A stretch of DNA of 64,000 nucleotides. Source: Halorubrum alkaliphilum. Lineage in GTDB: Archaea > Halobacteriota > Halobacteria > Halobacteriales > Haloferacaceae. The position numbers and the translations under genes are program-made. A model generated the notes under the pieces. The model saw only the letters and a list, made by a program, of their open reading frames with translations, was not told where the DNA came from and made no database searches. Of this stretch, positions 26,197 to 35,586 are shown piece after piece. The stretch covers positions 1 to 64,000 of the forward strand of contig NZ_JAGGKQ010000015.1 in NCBI RefSeq assembly GCF_017873815.1. Direction: 5' to 3'. Positions within the stretch are counted from its first letter, which is position 1. Each line of letters begins with the position of its first letter.

Positions 26197-26649
26197 TCAG
26201 TACTCGCCGCTCTCGGGATCGTACCGGTCGCCGTACTCCCGCATCGGATCGACGGGAGTTCCCTCGTCGGTCTCCGGTGCGACATAGTCGATGAACGACT
26301 CCACGTCGGGCTCGCGCACGCGGACCTCGACGGTTATTTCGCCGAGTTCGTCCGGCTCGCCGACGGCGAAGTTGACGATCCCCTCGAACGCCGCCTGCTT
26401 TTTCAACGCGAACTCGAACCCGTCCGCCGTCGAGTTCCGCAGGAACACCCGTCGAGCGGTGTCGAGTATCTCCTGTTCGTGGAGGACGTCTGAAAAGGCG
26501 TCGAGGGCGTGTGCTTCCGCGACCAGCCGCCCCTCCTCGTGGACGGGCTCCGCGTCGGGGAACACGTTGCGGATCGCGTCCTCGACTCGGTCGGTGACCT
26601 CGGTGTCGTTGACCGGTGCGACGATCCTGACGTCAACGCTGTAGATCAC
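26197..26649 (-). CDS. UPF0201 family protein
   Basis: A 150-residue archaeal protein of the UPF0201 (DUF54) family, thought to have an RNA-binding-like alpha/beta fold. Landmarks are IYSVDVRIVAPVNDTEVTDR, DAIRNVFPDAEP, the central EQEILDTARRVFLRNSTADG and FALKKQAAFEGIVNFAVGE. It starts with GTG that overlaps the stop of the upstream kinase gene by 4 bases (GTGA), so the two are translationally coupled, as is common in archaea. The tail is acidic. Biochemical function not established. Confidence 0.88.
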   Translation of the reverse strand: MIYSVDVRIVAPVNDTEVTDRVEDAIRNVFPDAEPVHEEGRLVAEAHALDAFSDVLHEQEILDTARRVFLRNSTADGFEFALKKQAAFEGIVNFAVGEPDELGEITVEVRVREPDVESFIDYVAPETDEGTPVDPMREYGDRYDPESGEY

Positions 26650-27221
26650 TGGTGACCACCGCCGTCGACGGGCTCGCTCACGCCGAGTATCCCGCGGATA
26701 CGCTCTTGAAACGCCGACAGCGACCCGGTGTTGTCGATCTCGACATCGGCACGTTCGAGGGTCGCTCCGAGCCCCAGATCGAGTTCGCGATCGTCGCGCT
26801 CGCGAAGCGCCTTCAGGTCGGAGTCGGAGTCGTCACGACCGCGCTCTCCCAACCGCTCGGCGCGGAGTTCGAAGGGCGCGCGGACGGCGACGAGGGTGAA
26901 CTCGTCGCCGAACGCCTCGCGGAAGCGCTCCAACTCGACGGTCGAGCGGAGGCCGTCGACGAGCACCGTGTCCGCGTCGTGGGCCGCGGCAGCCTCGCGG
27001 ATCCGCGGCAGCGACCGTTCGGCGATCGCGTCGTCGCCCTCCTCCTCTCGGAGGAGGCCGGCCATTCGACCGTGATGTTCGGCCGGGTCGAGTCCGCGCT
27101 CGCGACACTCCTCGCGGATCACGTCGCCCATCACGACGACCGGGACGCCGGCGGCCTCGGCGACGTTGGCCGCCTCGCCCTTGCCGCTGCCCGGCAAGCC
27201 GACGGTACCGATGACGTTCAT
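26646..27221 (-). CDS. UPF0200 nucleotide/dephospho-CoA kinase-like protein
   Basis: A 191-residue P-loop kinase. The Walker A loop is GLPGSGKGEAANVAEAAG at the N terminus. MGDVIREECRERGLDP follows as the substrate/lid region, and LVDGLRSTVELERFREAFG and RLGERGRDDSDSDLKALRERD as later landmarks of UPF0200. The family is related to dephospho-CoA kinase and adenylate kinase, and an archaeal member has been proposed to make CoA, but I cannot assign the substrate here. It is the first gene of the two-gene operon with UPF0201. Confidence 0.85.
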   Translation of the reverse strand: MNVIGTVGLPGSGKGEAANVAEAAGVPVVVMGDVIREECRERGLDPAEHHGRMAGLLREEEGDDAIAERSLPRIREAAAAHDADTVLVDGLRSTVELERFREAFGDEFTLVAVRAPFELRAERLGERGRDDSDSDLKALRERDDRELDLGLGATLERADVEIDNTGSLSAFQERIRGILGVSEPVDGGGHQ

Positions 27222-27321: not shown

Positions 27322-30216
27322 CTACAGTCCGCCGGTAAGCGCTGGCGGTCCGTTACCGTTGCCGGGCGGCCCGTTACCGTTGCCGGGCGGCCCGTCTCCG
27401 TTGCCGGGCGGCCCGTTACCGTTGCCGGGCGGCCCGTTACCGTTGCCGGGCGGCCCGTCTCCGTTGCCGGCTCCGTCACCCGGTCCGTTGCCGGGCGTGT
27501 CATCGGAACCGTCCGCCGGCCGCTCCTCGATCAGGATCTCGCCGTCGACGAGGCGGTCGGGGACATCGAGCGTCTCCCGGACCTCGTCAGCGACGAGGTC
27601 GCCGGCAACTGTGACGCCGCCCGACAGACGGAGCGTGTCGACGGTCGCCAGCGTCACGTCCCCGTCTACCGTCGCGCCGCCACGAGCCTCGAAGGCGTCG
27701 AGGTCGCCCGCGACGGACACCGCGCCAACGGAGGACCCACCGACCAGTTCGGCGTCGGCTCCGGTACCGATCTCGAGGGCACCGACCGACCCCGATCCGA
27801 CGACGGAGACGTCGCCGACCGACTCGACGGCGAGCGTCCCCGCGACCGCCGCGTTTCCGCGAACAGCGACCTCGTCGGCGGATTCCGCCGTCAGGTCGCC
27901 ACTGACGGTGCCGCTGCCGAGCAGACGCACGTCGCCCGCCACGTCACCCTCCACAGCGACATCCTCGACGGTGGCTGCGCCGCGGACGATTACGTCGCCC
28001 GCGACATCGCCGACCACGCGGACCTCGCCGTCGACGGTCGTGTCACCGCCGAGAACGACGTCGCCGTCGACCGGTCCGACGACCACGTCGCCGTCGACAT
28101 CCTCGCTGTTCAGTCGCACCTCGTCGACGCCGTCCGGCGTCTCGTCGTAGGTGAACGTCGTCGTCGTTGTTTCGTCAGCGGTGACGGAGAAGCTGACCGG
28201 CTCGGTGGTGCCGAAGTCCAGCGTCTCGGCGACGACGTCGAGCGATCCGGGCGGCACGTCCGTCAATGCGAACGTCCCGTCGTCACTCACCTGTACGGTG
28301 CGATCCGGTCCGAACGCGTCGGAATCAGCGGAGAACGTCACCCACGTTCCGGCGGCGAGCGACTCGCCGTCGGCGTCCGTCACCGTCCCCTCCAGCGTGC
28401 CGGTTTCGGGCGCTGTCAGCGTCACATCGGCCGTCTCGTCGGAACCGAGATCGACCGTGACCGGGTCGCTCTCGCCGCTGTCCTGCGAGGTGACCGTGAC
28501 CTCGTAGGTACCGAGCGCGACGCGGTCGACCGCGAAGCCGCCGTCGGCGTCGGTCTCGACCACGGTCGCGCCGTCGGACGCGTCCCCATCGAGCGCGTCG
28601 TAAGCGACGACGACCGTCTCGTCGGCGACCGGCTCGCCGTCGGCGTCGGTCACCGTGCCGGAGAGCGTCGCGGTCGTCGGTGCCTCTCCGTAGGTGAACT
28701 CCGTCGTCGCCGTCTCACCGGGGTCGACGCTCACCGAGACCGGGTCGGTCCCGCCGTCTGCGACGGTCTCGGCGGTCACGTCGTACTCGCCGGGCGCGAC
28801 GCCCTCGATCGAGAGGACGCCGTCGGCGTCGACCTGTCCCGTCAGCGGAGCCGCGAAGTCGTCGGCCGAGAGCGTCACCCACGTCCCCTCCGTGAGGGGG
28901 TCGCCGTCGGCGTCGGTGACGAGCGCGTCAAGCGCGCCGGTTTCGCCCGCGATCACCGCGAACGTCGCTGTCGTCTCGCCGTCGACCTCGACCGTCTCGG
29001 ACGCCTCGCCGGCCTCCTGCGTGGTGACGGTTGCGTCGTACGCGCCCGCGACCGGTGCCTCGACGGTGATCGCGCCGTCCGCGTCGGTCGTCGCGAACTC
29101 GACGACCTCCTCGCCGTCGGTGGCGTCGTCCGCGCCGTCGAGCGTCACGACGACATCGGTGTCAGCGAGCGGGTCGCCGTCCCCGTCGGTGATCGTGGCC
29201 GCGAGTTCGTCGCCGGGTTCGGGGTCGTCCTCGCCGACGACGAGATCACCGGCGACGGTCACCTCGTCCTCCTCGCCGACGAACGTTAGCGTCGGCTCGT
29301 ACTCGCCGGCGTCGGGGTTCTCGACCCCCTCGACGACGACGGATCCCTCGCCGGCGATGTCAGTCGTCGCGACGCCACTGAGATCGAACGTCGCCGCGCT
29401 GCCGTCGTAGCTGCCCTGGTTGACGCTGATCTCGGAGGTGTCCTCGCCGCTCGACAGCGTCCGCGTGAGCGTGACGGTCACGTCGTCGTTCGTCAGTCCG
29501 TCGAAGCTCGCCGCGTCCGGATAGTCGGCGACGATCTCGTCAACCTGGCCCTCGAAGTCGACGTCGTCGAACGCCCACGTGTGCGTGGAGTCGGCGTTCG
29601 CCGCCGCCGGATCCGCAGTCAACGACAGTCCCGTCGCGGGACCGTCGTCGTCATCCGCATCGTTGCCGTCATCCGCGTCGTCTCCGGAGTCAACGGTGAC
29701 GTCGGCGGTGACCGTCACCTCGTCCTCGTCACCGGTGAGGGTGATCGTCGGCTCGTACTCGCCGGCGTCGGGGTTCACGACCCCGTCGATGACGACCGAT
29801 CCCTCGCCGGCGATGTCCGTCGTGGCGAGGCCGCTGAGATCGAACGTCGCCGCGTTGCCGGCGTAGCTGTCTTGGTTGACGCTGATCTCGGATGTATCCT
29901 CGCCGCTCGACAGCGTCCGCGTGAGCGTGACGGTCACGTCATCGTCGGTGAGTCCGTCGAGACTCGTTTCGTCGGGATACGAGACGCTGATCGTGTCGAC
30001 CTCGCCCTCGAAGTCGACATCGTCGAACGCCCACGTGTGTGTGGAGTCGGCGTTCGCCGTCGCCGGATCGGCGTCGAGCGTCAGGCTCTCCGCGGGACCG
30101 TCGCTCGCGGCACCGAAGCCCACGGGAGCCATCGCGACGACGGCGAGGAGCATGACCGCGGCCAGCGCGACCGCACGAAGCCGGTCGCGGCCGCCGCCCG
30201 TTTCGCGAGTGCTCAC
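27322..30216 (-). CDS. large secreted surface protein with bactofilin-like repeats and GPPGNGN tail
   Basis: 964 residues. A Sec-type signal peptide (1-36) is followed by two copies of a 130-residue acidic beta domain (about 45-175 and 195-325, each starting near DADPATANADSTHTWAFDDV). Four or five carboxypeptidase-regulatory/CNA-B-like domains follow (about 330-690, each with VTDADGxPL). Then comes a regular Val/Gly/Asp-rich right-handed-coil-like block (about 700-880: GDVVVGPVDGDVVLGG, GDVAGDVRLLGSG), resembling bactofilin or polymer-forming domains. The end is six seven-residue GPPGNGN/D units. GTG start overlapping the upstream gene's stop. No C-terminal membrane anchor or PGF-CTERM is seen. 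Confidence 0.78.
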   Translation of the reverse strand: MSTRETGGGRDRLRAVALAAVMLLAVVAMAPVGFGAASDGPAESLTLDADPATANADSTHTWAFDDVDFEGEVDTISVSYPDETSLDGLTDDDVTVTLTRTLSSGEDTSEISVNQDSYAGNAATFDLSGLATTDIAGEGSVVIDGVVNPDAGEYEPTITLTGDEDEVTVTADVTVDSGDDADDGNDADDDDGPATGLSLTADPAAANADSTHTWAFDDVDFEGQVDEIVADYPDAASFDGLTNDDVTVTLTRTLSSGEDTSEISVNQGSYDGSAATFDLSGVATTDIAGEGSVVVEGVENPDAGEYEPTLTFVGEEDEVTVAGDLVVGEDDPEPGDELAATITDGDGDPLADTDVVVTLDGADDATDGEEVVEFATTDADGAITVEAPVAGAYDATVTTQEAGEASETVEVDGETTATFAVIAGETGALDALVTDADGDPLTEGTWVTLSADDFAAPLTGQVDADGVLSIEGVAPGEYDVTAETVADGGTDPVSVSVDPGETATTEFTYGEAPTTATLSGTVTDADGEPVADETVVVAYDALDGDASDGATVVETDADGGFAVDRVALGTYEVTVTSQDSGESDPVTVDLGSDETADVTLTAPETGTLEGTVTDADGESLAAGTWVTFSADSDAFGPDRTVQVSDDGTFALTDVPPGSLDVVAETLDFGTTEPVSFSVTADETTTTTFTYDETPDGVDEVRLNSEDVDGDVVVGPVDGDVVLGGDTTVDGEVRVVGDVAGDVIVRGAATVEDVAVEGDVAGDVRLLGSGTVSGDLTAESADEVAVRGNAAVAGTLAVESVGDVSVVGSGSVGALEIGTGADAELVGGSSVGAVSVAGDLDAFEARGGATVDGDVTLATVDTLRLSGGVTVAGDLVADEVRETLDVPDRLVDGEILIEERPADGSDDTPGNGPGDGAGNGDGPPGNGNGPPGNGNGPPGNGDGPPGNGNGPPGNGNGPPALTGGL
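27346..27470. repeat. 21-bp tandem repeat coding the GPPGNGN tail
   Basis: The unit ccgttgccgggcggcccgtt plus a, 21 bp, repeats about six times in frame at the 3' end of the large surface-protein gene. It encodes seven-residue GPPGNGN or GPPGNGD units, so its copy number can change without a frameshift. Confidence 0.85.
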
Positions 30217-33200
30217 GGCGCCACCACCGTCGTGCCCTCGGTGTACGCCTCAACGACCACGTCGAGCGTGTCGCGGTCGATGCGCCCAGCGGCCCAGTCG
30301 GCGGTCGCGCCGTCGAGCGCGTCGCGGTCGATCTCGCCGTCGTCGTTCGCGATCAGTTCGAGATACGCCTGCGTCTCGGGATCGAGGCCGGCGATCGGTC
30401 CCTCACCGACCGGATCGAACAGCGGGAAGTCGGCGTCAAACCGCGTCGTGACCGGAACAGCTGCGTCGCCGTCGAGATTCTCGGCGGCGTCGACGACTCG
30501 GTCGTCGTTCAGTCGGAGGTCGGAGCCAAGCCCCGCGGCGACCGCGTCGAGGTTCGAGCGGTTCTCGGCCGAGGCCGCGGTCGAGCCGAGGAGAACGACG
30601 GCACCGCCCGAGTCGCGGTAGTCGGCCAAGGCGTCGAGCTCGTCGTCTGTGTACGCGCGGCCGGGTGAGGTAAGGAACACCGCCGTCGGCTCGTCCTGTG
30701 CCGGGAGGGTGTTCACTACGTCGTTGAACTGACGGAGACGATTGCCGATCCCCTCCACGAACCGGAGGAACGTCTCGACGCGCTCCAAGGAGAGCGAGCC
30801 GTCCACGTCGAACTGGGCGTGACCCCCCTCGATGAGCACGTCGCCGTCGTTGTTCGAGAGGTACGTCGCGAGGTTGTAGAGGAACGGGAAGTTGCCGAAC
30901 TCCTCGACTCCCTCGATCCCCTCGTACGCCTCGTTGAACAGCATGCCGCCAACCATCGCCACGCGACGATCCTCGTCGACGCCGACGAGCGGCGCGTCCT
31001 CGTAGGCGTCGAACCCGTCTCCGCCGCTGTCGCCGCCCTCGAACGTCTCCTGCTCGGCCTCCTCACCGGCGTACACCGGGACGCGGTCGGCGGTGAGCGG
31101 CCCGTCCGCCGTCGTGATCGAGGAGGTCCGCGGGACGAACACCTCCTCGACGGGGTCGTTACGAACCGGCTCCAGCGCGTCGAAGTCGGCGGCCGACCAG
31201 ACGCCGCGTCCGTCCGCCAGCGCCGCCTCCTCGGCGGCCGCGAACTCGTCGTGTCGCGAGAAGCCGGACGAGTAGACGCGGGAGTAACCCTCCTCGACCG
31301 TTTCGAGGTTGTAGTCCACGTCGTAGTCGCCCTCGTAGGTGGCGTCCGGATCGTCGGCGTTGCCGGCGTCCGCGTCGAAGTCGTCCGAGTCGTAGTACAT
31401 GTACGAGAGGAGCCGCCCGAAGTTGCCGCGGATCGGCTCCACCTCGTCGAACTCCATCTTCACGCGGCGACCCTCGACGTTCGTCTCGCCGGCGTCGGCG
31501 TCGGGTGCCATCAACTCAAGCGCGAAGTCGGTCGCCAACCCACCCCACTCGTCGAGGTGGTCGAGGTCCTCGATCCCGAACCACTCTTCGGGATCGTTGG
31601 TCGCCGGCGCGGTCTCCGCCGTGTCGAACCCGAGGTGTCGGATCACGTCACGGTAGTCGTACTCGGAGTCGAACTCCACCTCGAAGGTGTCCCCGTCGAA
31701 CACGCGCACGACGCGGCCGTAGTACGCCTCGTCGCGCTGGAACTCGATCCCGATCGAGTCGTCACGCGCGCCGAAGTAGTCGAACGCGGTGTTGAAGTTC
31801 GAAGTCGCCACGTCGAAGTCGCCGGTCGGGTCGTTGACCTGATCCGAGTTGAACCGGAAGGCCAGGTCGAGCGCGTCGGCGATGGCGTTCAGGTTCTCCG
31901 TCTCGTCGAAGCCGAACGCGGTGTTGCCCTGCCCGCCAAAGTCGGACTCGTCGAACAAAAAGAGGCTCCCGCCGTCCGCGAGGAAGTCGTCGATCGCGTC
32001 GAGCTCGGCCCCCGAGAACGCCTCGCCCGGCGAGGGGACGACGAGCCCGTCGGCCTCGTCGAGTCCGGGCGACTCCAGCCCGGTGAACACGTCGAACCCC
32101 TCGTTGAAGTTCGTCGTCGTCGGGAGGAACGACTGGCCGGCGTTGTTCTCGAAGTCCTGTACCTGATCCGCGTTGAACCGGAAGGACAGGTCGAGCGCGT
32201 CGGCGATGGCGTTCAGGTTCGCCGTCTCCTCGTTGGTGAACTCTGACTCGTCGAGCAGGAACAGACTCCCGCCGTCCGCGACGAAGTCGACGAGCGCGTC
32301 GAGCTCAGCGTCGGTGTAGGCGTCGGCCGGCGAGGGGACGAACAGCGCGTCGCCCGGGATCTCGGTTTCTCCGTCGCCGCCGTCGCCCGCAGTGAAGAAG
32401 TCGAACTCGTCGTTGAAGTTGCTCGTTCGGGGAACGAACGGCGCAAAGCCGTTGTTCTCCTCGTCGACGACTTGGTCCGTGTTGAACCGGAAGCCGGCGT
32501 CAACCGCCGCCGCGATGTCGTTGAGCGTGTCCGTCGAATCCCCCTCGAAGTCCGCGGTGTCGTGGAGGAAGAGGACGCCGCCGTCCGCGACGAAGTCGGC
32601 GATGACATCGAGGTCGTCGCCGGGGAAACCGTCAGCGAGGTCGTCGTCCTCCGTGGCGATCATCAGCAGATCGACGTCGTCGACCGCGGCGGCAAAGGCG
32701 GCGTCGTCCGCGACCGACTCCACGTCGAATCCGCGGTCCTCAGCCTCGGACGCGAGTCCGGAGAAGTCGTCGAGCGACAGCGACTGCCCGTGGCTCTCGT
32801 CGAACAGCACCGTGCCCGTCCCGTCGAGCCGATCCTCCCACGCGTTGACGAGGAACGTCCGGTTGTCGTCCTCGTCGCTCGCGTCCGGAGCGAGCTCGGA
32901 GCCGACGCCGACCACGCCGTCGTCGACCGCAACGAGCGGGATGTCGGCGTCGATGTCCGCGTAGTCGACGAAGCCGGTTCCCGCCTCGTCGACGTTCTCG
33001 GCGGTCGATTCCGCCCACGCCGCGATCAGGCTCTCGTCAGTGAGCGGCTCCTCGTTCTCGTCGAGCAGGCTCGCCGTCGAGAAGAACTCCAACTCGTCGA
33101 CGCCGCCCGATTCCACTGCTCCATCGAGCAGGTCGGCGGCCGCCTCGAAGGTGTACCCCTCGCTCTCGACCGTGTCGGCGAACGCGCCGAACGTCGAGGA

Positions 33201-34097
33201 GTCGTAGAAGCTGTCGTGGGCGTCGTCCCACACCAGCGTCCCCTCCGAGCCGACCGTGTCAGCGAGCAGGTTGAGCGCGAACTGCTCGTTCGCCGTGGTG
33301 AAATCGCCGTCCTCGATCAGCTCCGGCGTGCCGAGCCCGACCACGTCGCCGTCGCGAGAGACGAGCGGGATCTCCTCGTCGTCGCCGTAGACGTGTGCGG
33401 CCTCGTCCCCGTCGTCGTCGACGTTCTCCGCGGTCGACTCCGCCCACACCATCACGTGTTCGGGGTTCGTCAGCGGCCCGCCGTTCGGGTCGACCTGACT
33501 CGCCGTCGACGGGAACAGAAGCGAGGACGTTCCGAGTATCTCGACGGTCGACTGGATATCGTACCCCGCGTTGGCCGCGTACTGGTCGAAGGAGTTGTAG
33601 TTCGAGAGCGCGAGCCCGCCGAACTGGTCGTGGCCCTCGTCCCAGAGCACGGTCCCCTCGCCGCCAAGCTTCTCGTCGAAGACGTTCAGCAGGAACTCCT
33701 CGTTGTCCAGATCGAAGCCGCCCTGATCGTCGCTCACGAGGTCGACGGAGCCGAACCCGACCACCGGCCCGTCCTCGGAGACGAGCGGGATCGGCTCGTC
33801 CTCGTAGACGACGGTCTCCGGCCCGTCGTCCGTCGTTTCGAAGTTCTCCGATCCCGGTGGTGCCCACATCACCACGTGCTCGGGATCCGCCAGTTCGCTC
33901 TCGCCGTCGGACGCTATCTGGCTCGCCGGCGAGTAAAAGGAGACCGCATCGAGATCGACTTCGGTGTTCGTCAGTGCCGATACCGGGGAAAACGACGAGC
34001 CGGACGCGACCGCCGCCGTACCGAGCGTAGCGCCGGCCAAGCCCAAGAACCCGCGTCTTCCGATTCCGCCACCGCCGTCCGATGGGTCATAACCCAT
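30213..34097 (-). CDS. Tat-exported multidomain protein with staphylococcal-nuclease domain
   Basis: 1294 residues. A twin-arginine signal (GRRGFLGLAGATLGTAAVA, about 12-31) marks it for export in folded form. Residues about 50-480 hold three repeats of a VVMWAP...VYEDEPIPLVS...LVWDEGHD type. Residues 480-775 hold three DUF4350-like repeats ending in DFVADGGSLFLLDESEF. Residues 791-975 are an SNase domain with Asp801 (VFDGDTFEVEF), Arg820 and Glu828 (IRHLGFDTAET) and Arg895 (GRLLSYMYY), matching the four catalytic positions of staphylococcal nuclease. More DUF4350-like sequence follows to 1230, then an EF-hand-like NDDGEIDRDAL segment. It is coupled by GTGA to the surface-protein gene. Confidence 0.85.
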   Translation of the reverse strand: MGYDPSDGGGGIGRRGFLGLAGATLGTAAVASGSSFSPVSALTNTEVDLDAVSFYSPASQIASDGESELADPEHVVMWAPPGSENFETTDDGPETVVYEDEPIPLVSEDGPVVGFGSVDLVSDDQGGFDLDNEEFLLNVFDEKLGGEGTVLWDEGHDQFGGLALSNYNSFDQYAANAGYDIQSTVEILGTSSLLFPSTASQVDPNGGPLTNPEHVMVWAESTAENVDDDGDEAAHVYGDDEEIPLVSRDGDVVGLGTPELIEDGDFTTANEQFALNLLADTVGSEGTLVWDDAHDSFYDSSTFGAFADTVESEGYTFEAAADLLDGAVESGGVDELEFFSTASLLDENEEPLTDESLIAAWAESTAENVDEAGTGFVDYADIDADIPLVAVDDGVVGVGSELAPDASDEDDNRTFLVNAWEDRLDGTGTVLFDESHGQSLSLDDFSGLASEAEDRGFDVESVADDAAFAAAVDDVDLLMIATEDDDLADGFPGDDLDVIADFVADGGVLFLHDTADFEGDSTDTLNDIAAAVDAGFRFNTDQVVDEENNGFAPFVPRTSNFNDEFDFFTAGDGGDGETEIPGDALFVPSPADAYTDAELDALVDFVADGGSLFLLDESEFTNEETANLNAIADALDLSFRFNADQVQDFENNAGQSFLPTTTNFNEGFDVFTGLESPGLDEADGLVVPSPGEAFSGAELDAIDDFLADGGSLFLFDESDFGGQGNTAFGFDETENLNAIADALDLAFRFNSDQVNDPTGDFDVATSNFNTAFDYFGARDDSIGIEFQRDEAYYGRVVRVFDGDTFEVEFDSEYDYRDVIRHLGFDTAETAPATNDPEEWFGIEDLDHLDEWGGLATDFALELMAPDADAGETNVEGRRVKMEFDEVEPIRGNFGRLLSYMYYDSDDFDADAGNADDPDATYEGDYDVDYNLETVEEGYSRVYSSGFSRHDEFAAAEEAALADGRGVWSAADFDALEPVRNDPVEEVFVPRTSSITTADGPLTADRVPVYAGEEAEQETFEGGDSGGDGFDAYEDAPLVGVDEDRRVAMVGGMLFNEAYEGIEGVEEFGNFPFLYNLATYLSNNDGDVLIEGGHAQFDVDGSLSLERVETFLRFVEGIGNRLRQFNDVVNTLPAQDEPTAVFLTSPGRAYTDDELDALADYRDSGGAVVLLGSTAASAENRSNLDAVAAGLGSDLRLNDDRVVDAAENLDGDAAVPVTTRFDADFPLFDPVGEGPIAGLDPETQAYLELIANDDGEIDRDALDGATADWAAGRIDRDTLDVVVEAYTEGTTVVAP

Positions 34098-34232: not shown

Positions 34233-34307
34233 GGGCACGTAGCTCAGCCAGGATAGAGCGTCGGACTTCTAATCCGATGGTCATGGGTTCGAATCCCATC
34301 GTGCTCG
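34233..34307 (+). tRNA. tRNA-Arg (anticodon UCU)
   Basis: A 75-base cloverleaf without intron. The acceptor stem pairs gggcacg (34233-34239) with cgtgctc (34300-34306), with one G-U pair, and the discriminator base is G at 34307. The anticodon stem cggac/atccg encloses the loop cttctaa, so the anticodon is TCT, reading AGA/AGG arginine codons. The T arm is tgggttcgaatccca. The CCA end is not encoded. Sequences downstream repeat its 3' end. Confidence 0.95.
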
Positions 34308-34328: not shown

Positions 34329-34500
34329 CGAGCACGATGAATCCCCGTTCGCTCCGCTCACGGCGATCCCATCGTGCTCGCTCTCTGCGAGCGAAGCGAG
34401 TGAGCACGTCTGATTTTGGTTCGAATCCCATCGTGCTCGGCTCTTCCGTTCGCGGGCACGATGAACTCCCGTTCGCTACACTCACGGGGGTCCCATCGTG
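34329..34500. repeat. degenerate copies of the tRNA-Arg 3' end
   Basis: The last 22 bases of the tRNA (34286-34307) recur exactly at 34418-34439. Shorter copies are atcccatcgtgctcg at 34366-34380 and tcccatcgtg at 34491-34500. Inverted partial copies are cgagcacgatga at 34329-34340 and gggcacgatga at 34454-34464. This is the pattern left when elements integrate into a tRNA 3' end and recreate it. The region 34308-34563 has no gene. Confidence 0.8.
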
Positions 34501-34563: not shown

Positions 34564-35586
34564 TCAGTCCGCCACTTTCGGCGTCCCGAGGTACTTCTCG
34601 TTGATCTCGTACTCGCCGTCGTCGTTCTCGATCAGGTACTCGCCGTAGTAGGGAACGCGGTTCGCCACCACCGCCTCGAACGTTTCGGCGATCTCCGCGC
34701 GTGTCATCTCGCCCATCGAGCGAAGGTCGTCGTTTCGGTTGAGACACCCTTTTAAATATCCCTCGTGGGTGACGCGGACGCGGCCGCAGTTGGCACAGAA
34801 CTCCTCGTTCTCGACGGGGTCGACGATCTCGACCATGCCGCTCCCCTCCCCGTCGGCGTCAGCGTCGCTATCACCCTCCTCGCCCACGAAGTATCGCTTG
34901 CGGTCGTGCATCGCGCGGTGCTCGACACGGTGGGCGATGTCAGCGAGCCAATCGTGGACGCGTCCGATGTCGACGTTCCACTCGGGTTTGCCGGTGAGCT
35001 CCGGCATGTACTGGATGAGCTGGAGCTGGAGTCCCTCGTTGTCGGCGACGTGTTCGACCATTTCCTCGACGTAGCCCGCGGTGTGGGTGAACACGACCAT
35101 GTTGAGTTTCACGGGGTCGAGCCCGGCGTCGACGGCGGCTTTCACGCCCTCCAAGACCTGCTCGTACGCGCCCGACTTCGTCACCTCCGCGAAGTCGTCC
35201 GGATCGAGCGCGTCCTGTGAGACGTTGACGCGGTCGAGCCCGGCAGCCCTCAGGTCCTCTGCGCGCCCGGGGAGGAAGGTCCCGTTCGTCGTCATCGAGA
35301 CCTCCATCGAGTCGGGCGTGCGCTCGATGATCTCCTCAAGATCCTGTCGAAGCATCGGCTCTCCACCGGTGAACTTCACGGAGTCGACGCCGTACTCCTC
35401 GACGACCTCTAGGAACCGAACGACGTCGTCGGCGCTCATCTCGTCCTCGCTCGGCTCCATGGGACCGCGCGTGTCGCCGAGCCCCTCGTTGTGGCAGTAG
35501 ATACAGTCGAAGTTACAGCGGTCGGTGAGCGAGATCCGTACCCCCGTCACCTCCCGCCCGAAGTCGTCGGCGAGCGGCTCGGTCAT
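34564..35586 (-). CDS. moaA: GTP 3',8-cyclase
   Basis: A 340-residue radical-SAM enzyme that starts molybdopterin synthesis by converting GTP to 3',8-cyclo-GTP. The N-terminal cluster binding motif is Cys24-Cys28-Cys31 in [14 protein letters not shown], followed by the SAM-binding FTGGEPMLR. The C-terminal second cluster motif is [20 protein letters not shown] and then CLNRND, as in MoaA. An Asp-rich insert ([13 protein letters not shown]) sits before it. The final GG typical of bacterial MoaA is not seen; the protein ends GTPKVAD. No other moa gene is in this window. Confidence 0.94.

Follow-up and report, generated by a model that had tools for sequence, protein, structure and literature searches.

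The 64,000-nucleotide stretch of Halorubrum alkaliphilum DNA analysed here (the window) contains, between a kinase-like gene (26646–27221) and moaA (34564–35586), a gene for a giant protein in which a staphylococcal nuclease-like (SNase) domain lies among DUF4350-like units. The initial annotation described it as a Tat-exported enzyme with an intact active site in a scaffold of amidotransferase-like repeats, an architecture not known to have been described. The locus raises the questions of how such a scaffold was assembled and what the protein does outside the cell.

The gene is read in one frame, with no internal stop, on the minus strand from 30213 to 34097 (Table 1). Relatives of its 1294-residue product in other genera are 62–69% identical over nearly the full length, and the long plus-strand ORFs opposite the gene are shadows in high-GC DNA. 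With 23.6% Asp plus Glu, 3.3% Lys plus Arg and no cysteine, the protein is strongly acidic, which matches expectation for a haloarchaeal protein. Its N-terminus, GRRGFLGLAGATLG, is by inspection a Tat motif, as annotated initially, and RR-x-F is kept at the same N-terminal place in relatives with a clear start. The signal is followed by units of the DUF4350/GIFT type, the SNase domain (residues 788–975) and one further unit. DUF4350 (PF14258) scored 53.7 bits against a cut-off of 30.4 in three stretches, ABC_transp_aux (PF09822) 81.7 bits against 34.7 in four, and the IFT52 GIFT domain (PF23355) was also above its Pfam cut-off. Self-BLAST at the settings used found no internal repeats; profile HMMs were required for the half-units described below, which lie on both sides of the nuclease, as had been claimed. 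The only match by phmmer (whole protein against the PDB), a doubtful one to BLIP repeats at 1171–1218, was rejected as an effect of composition, no single stretch falling below E 0.2.

Table 1. Features of the giant nuclease locus, in window coordinates.
Feature	Position	Strand	Basis
Giant nuclease gene, 1294 aa	30213..34097	-	ORF and full-length relatives
Tat signal peptide, about residues 1-45, RRGFLGL, no lipobox	33963..34097	-	sequence; motif kept in relatives
Half-unit A1, residues 50-187	33537..33950	-	own HMM
Half-unit A2, residues 192-324	33126..33524	-	own HMM
Half-unit A3, residues 334-465, first half of contiguous inner unit	32703..33098	-	own HMM, pairing scores, fold match
Half-unit B1, residues 476-569, second half of inner unit A3-B1	32391..32672	-	own HMM, pairing scores, fold match
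Half-unit B2, residues 583-672	32082..32351	-	own HMM
Half-unit B3, residues 682-776	31770..32054	-	own HMM
SNase domain, residues 788-975, with D801, D803, R820, D825, T826, E828, R895	31173..31736	-	profile matches, alignment, model
Half-unit A4, divergent, residues 981-1119	30741..31157	-	own HMM
Half-unit B4, divergent, residues 1120-1232	30402..30740	-	own HMM
GTGA overlap of 4 bases, nuclease stop TGA and partner start GTG	30213..30216	-	sequence
Partner gene, 964 aa	27322..30216	-	profile matches; adjacent in relatives, fused in others

In a full-length scan, the SNase Pfam model (PF00565) scored 17.5 bits, under its cut-off of 21; scanned alone, the domain passes with 23.1 bits, and all 26 family members match. 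The best curated nuclease model, that of the calcium-activated nuclease EcnA (NCBIfam NF047969), covers the whole domain (residues 789–968, E 1.1e-20), although its 74.2 bits stay below the equivalog cut-off of 180, so that the protein is not filed as an EcnA orthologue. Conversely, a profile from the 26 family SNase domains matched S. aureus nuclease (Nuc) at E 2.4e-14. In the alignment to Nuc, the DGDT motif corresponds to Asp19–Thr22, R820 to Arg35, D825-T826-x-E828 to Asp40-Thr41-x-Glu43, and R895 to Arg87. The four residues initially named as catalytic (D801, R820, E828 and R895) are thus all in place and align with the nuclease site, but the calcium ligand, Asp21 of Nuc, is D803, D801 being the equivalent of Asp19. 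The full set of D803, R820, D825, T826, E828 and R895 is present, and D801, D803, R820, D825, E828 and R895 are identical in 65/65 family SNase domains compared.

The protein was modelled in full with AlphaFold2 (residues 46–1240, pLDDT 72), and the N-terminal part was also modelled alone (pLDDT 83, pTM 0.47), from shallow alignments of 14 and 17 rows. Modelled residues 788–968 superpose on S. aureus nuclease with a Z score of 16.3 (2.1 Å over 132 residues), in agreement with the OB-fold anticipated for this region, and the structural matches to the full model (VIA rows) were filled by nuclease entries. A predicted OB-fold nuclease with a complete site in the giant protein is well supported by the alignment and this model. 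It shares fold, DGDT motif and the Arg35, Asp40, Thr41, Glu43 and Arg87 equivalents with staphylococcal nuclease (PF00565); unlike the latter, it has a longer loop between E828 and R895 and is embedded in a much larger protein.

Our own HMMs divided each scaffold unit into an N-terminal half A, with a beta-rich part followed by strand-helix-strand, and a C-terminal half B of strand-helix-strand-helix-strand. The order in the giant nuclease is A1 A2 A3 B1 B2 B3, SNase, A4 B4. We compared it with 69 distinct proteins from Natrialbaceae, Halorubrum (the genus of the window) and other haloarchaea, in which the orders (S denoting SNase) include AB-S-AB (n=19), AABB-S-AB (n=13) and AB-S(AB)S-AB (n=8). 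The order of the giant nuclease itself, AAABBB-S-AB, recurs in six relatives and in versions with an internal Ig-like domain. One protein has two units within its SNase domain; further arrangements are S-AB accompanied by Ig domains and a handful more, in part from fragments. Whole A-B units have been gained or lost among these proteins, and the A and B halves are balanced like brackets in 66 of the 69. Two of the three unbalanced proteins (L035 and L043) come from frameshifted genes and the third (L065) has an in-frame deletion. The Natrialba asiatica copy (L035:8001-11901) is frameshifted between A and B halves, through a sequencing error or as a pseudogene. In L065:6016-9057, from a genome close to L060, about 260 residues are gone in frame from mid-A2 to mid-B1, perhaps by a recent deletion or by assembly collapse of the repeats. 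The giant SNase and DUF4350 architecture is therefore a widespread haloarchaeal family and no one-off; its description as new holds insofar as no paper on it was found in the open-licence literature.

How the three A halves and three B halves of the N-terminal scaffold belong together is best seen at the innermost pair. In the model, A3-B1 (residues 330–566) is one domain, similar to residues 90–298 of IMPa (Z 13.1) and to the IFT52 GIFT domain (Z 7.9); the VIA rows for the N-terminal model were filled by matches to this inner unit, and Foldseek gave no match to that model below 0.001. A3-B1 also occurs as a free contiguous unit in the same-genus protein L043, scoring 176 vs 94 as A3 and 114 vs 69 as B1, and likewise in L045 and L047, so the partner of A3 is B1 and not B3. 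A Saliphagus protein (L036) has the order A1 A2 B2 B3, so that precisely A3 and B1 are missing; the two B halves present score as B2 (147 vs 101) and B3 (165 vs 82). In addition, A1 and A2 stop at the same place, past the second strand (GYDIQST and GYTFEAA), which is where contiguous units continue into B. The pair A3-B1 is well supported, and we infer the outer pairs A1-B3 and A2-B2 from topology and balance, as the similarity scores leave a choice between A1-B3 and A1-B2.

The loss of A3 together with B1 in L036, the free A3-B1 units and the common break point of A1 and A2 support recursive insertion, in which the scaffold would have grown by insertion of a complete A-B unit in the A/B loop of an existing unit to give A1(A2(A3 B1)B2)B3. 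We regard it as fairly probable that this is a family of secreted archaeal nucleases in which a GIFT-type domain was repeatedly inserted into its own same loop and, in certain lineages, also into the loop at the nuclease active site, with a three-deep nesting that may be traced step by step in living species. Alternatively, half-domains may have been duplicated separately, with no nesting, and would fold alone or pair in the order A1-B1, A2-B2, A3-B3. The low pTM of the N-terminal model and the pairing scores, which leave the outer pairs undecided, agree with this, but in-order pairing is at odds with the free A3-B1 units and with the joint absence of A3 and B1 in L036, and un-nested halves with the bracket-like balance; we consider separate duplication unlikely. 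Recursive insertion has a precedent in cyanobacterial RNA polymerase, where modules of one kind are nested within each other up to six levels deep (PMC13114784). The fold is a different one there, whereas here the proteins are exported nucleases and the growth steps are visible among living relatives.

The second kind of insertion is found in nine proteins (L039, L040, L053 and L092–L097), in which an A-B unit, or two units in L095, interrupts the SNase domain between its PEEWEGL and PYL..W motifs. The equivalents of D801 to E828 precede the insert and that of R895 follows it, and the catalytic residues are complete in these proteins. By alignment, the insertion spot corresponds to residues 51/52 of S. 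aureus nuclease, where the loop flanking the active site ends. This loop is mobile in S. aureus nuclease.

The stop codon of the nuclease gene overlaps the start of a second gene, whose product combines a hydrophobic, signal-like N-terminal stretch with two Ig-like and four carboxypeptidase-regulatory-like domains; it also has a bactofilin-like region and a tail rich in Gly, Pro and Asn. In three-level relatives, among them those of Natrialba and Halopiger, this partner lies directly downstream of the nuclease. No separate partner follows those nucleases into which its Ig-like domain has been fused; the fusions of L034 and L036 also include bactofilin-like sequence. The two-level group has neither partner nor fusion, L036 excepted. 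Adjacency in some relatives and fusion in others are good evidence that nuclease and partner act together. Within the partner gene, a 300-nt direct repeat of 85% identity (29237–29992) encodes the pair of Ig-like domains, and the Gly/Pro/Asn tail comes from a 21-nt tandem repeat (27323–27490); the L054 nuclease also has such a tail at its end.

In a tree of the SNase domain and the unit following it, the window gene groups with the three-level proteins of Natrialbaceae (100/99), apart from six proteins of its own genus (100/100); it was probably acquired from another lineage. Halorubrum genomes often hold another two-gene version at this locus, a one-unit protein followed by AB-SNase-AB. In L042:7308-11554 and in L043–L047 the one-unit protein of this pair is DUF1102-like and the two genes overlap by 4 bases; the AB-SNase-AB protein of L042 ends in a lamin tail domain (LTD), a link to the architecture of HVO_1477 discussed below. 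Other genomes of the genus have unrelated cargo or little at the locus, the stretch from the kinase-like gene to moaA measuring <1 kb to ~8 kb and carrying different genes, among them DNA-methyltransferase-like ORFs (L115, L120). A tRNA-Arg gene (TCT anticodon) lies at 34233–34307, with two further copies of its 3' end at 34366 and 34425, as left by integrations. The tRNA separates these copies from the nuclease gene, and the idea that the latter is cargo of a tRNA-integrated element is unsupported. The giant nuclease is the sole SNase found in the window genome (97.7% complete). At the search threshold no SNase was found in 27 of 52 same-genus genomes, so its function is dispensable there.

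The nearest experimentally studied protein by function is HVO_1477 of Haloferax volcanii, a haloarchaeal, exported lipoprotein with SNase and lamin tail domains and an expected role in the use of extracellular DNA (PMC3929857). Its deletion makes H. volcanii grow less on DNA, complementation restores growth, and DNA serves this organism mainly as a phosphorus source (PMC3929857). HVO_1477 has 327 residues, a lipobox and a lamin tail domain, with no DUF4350 units listed; the giant nuclease, in contrast, has no cysteine and hence no lipobox, no match to the lamin tail domain at E values up to 1, and eight half-units around the enzyme. The lack of cysteine excludes both a lipid anchor and Cys-dependent amidotransferase catalysis. 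The likeness of the scaffold units to amidotransferases thus extends to fold class only: they contain no Cys-dependent glutaminase, an amidotransferase activity is ruled out by the missing nucleophile, and the closest solved folds are the IMPa domain and IFT52 GIFT. Relative to the known DUF4350, ABC_transp_aux and GIFT families, the units of the window protein are split in halves, apparently nested, and attached to a nuclease.

By analogy with HVO_1477, the giant nuclease is probably an extracellular enzyme for feeding on environmental DNA, which a scaffold that binds sugars or proteins would keep at the surface. Tat would export an SNase-fold nuclease, probably calcium-dependent, and the SNase domain would cut DNA outside the cell. 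The DUF4350/GIFT units may be non-catalytic binding or spacing modules that keep the enzyme on the matrix or on the glycosylated surface of the cell, and the secreted partner from the same operon may help to hold it. Uptake of the products (nucleotides, phosphate) would follow, in line with the proposal made for HVO_1477. That GIFT domains bind sugars is a proposal only (PMC7226087); together with the fact that IMPa is an O-glycopeptidase, it makes surface-glycan binding by the units a reasonable guess. DNase activity, surface retention and a nutritional role are what we infer for the giant nuclease, and the analogy makes plausible the initial proposal that extracellular DNA is digested for phosphate.

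Outside the cell, the enzyme might instead remodel biofilm DNA or attack DNA from competitors or viruses. Its position in a variable spot beside tRNA-Arg, with different cargo, including methyltransferase-like genes, in other Halorubrum genomes, would suit such a role, as would a weak match (E 7e-4) to the PADLOC SNase+LTD model. However, this match spans only residues 795–841 and reflects the shared SNase core, and the locus has no immunity or toxin-delivery features, which makes a role of this kind improbable. Slightly less probable is that the nuclease processes DNA for gene uptake, as a surface step of natural transformation, and not as food: PMC3929857 leaves open whether HVO_1477 is part of an uptake complex, and a large scaffold with a partner could belong to a surface machine, but the nuclease is not coupled to genes for uptake or pili, the coupled gene encoding a secreted Ig-like/carboxypeptidase-regulatory-like protein. 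The score of the SNase domain near the Pfam cut-off might suggest a relic that binds nucleic acids without catalysis, but this is very hard to reconcile with catalytic residues that are invariant in all 65 family domains.

SNase domains, DUF4350/GIFT domains and nested insertion are each already known; the new point here is the scaffold of apparently nested units. In the open-licence literature we found no paper in which DUF4350 is joined to a nuclease, which is weak evidence of absence, and none on DUF4350 with haloarchaea.

Beside the one exported nuclease studied experimentally in haloarchaea, the family places a class of probable exported nucleases that is both large and common, with the partner protein as a new candidate to test alongside. 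The growth of deeply nested proteins is usually inferred from a single end product. In this family, versions with one, two and three levels exist side by side among related haloarchaea, which makes recursive insertion directly testable, together with its preferred loop and its effect on folding and Tat export.
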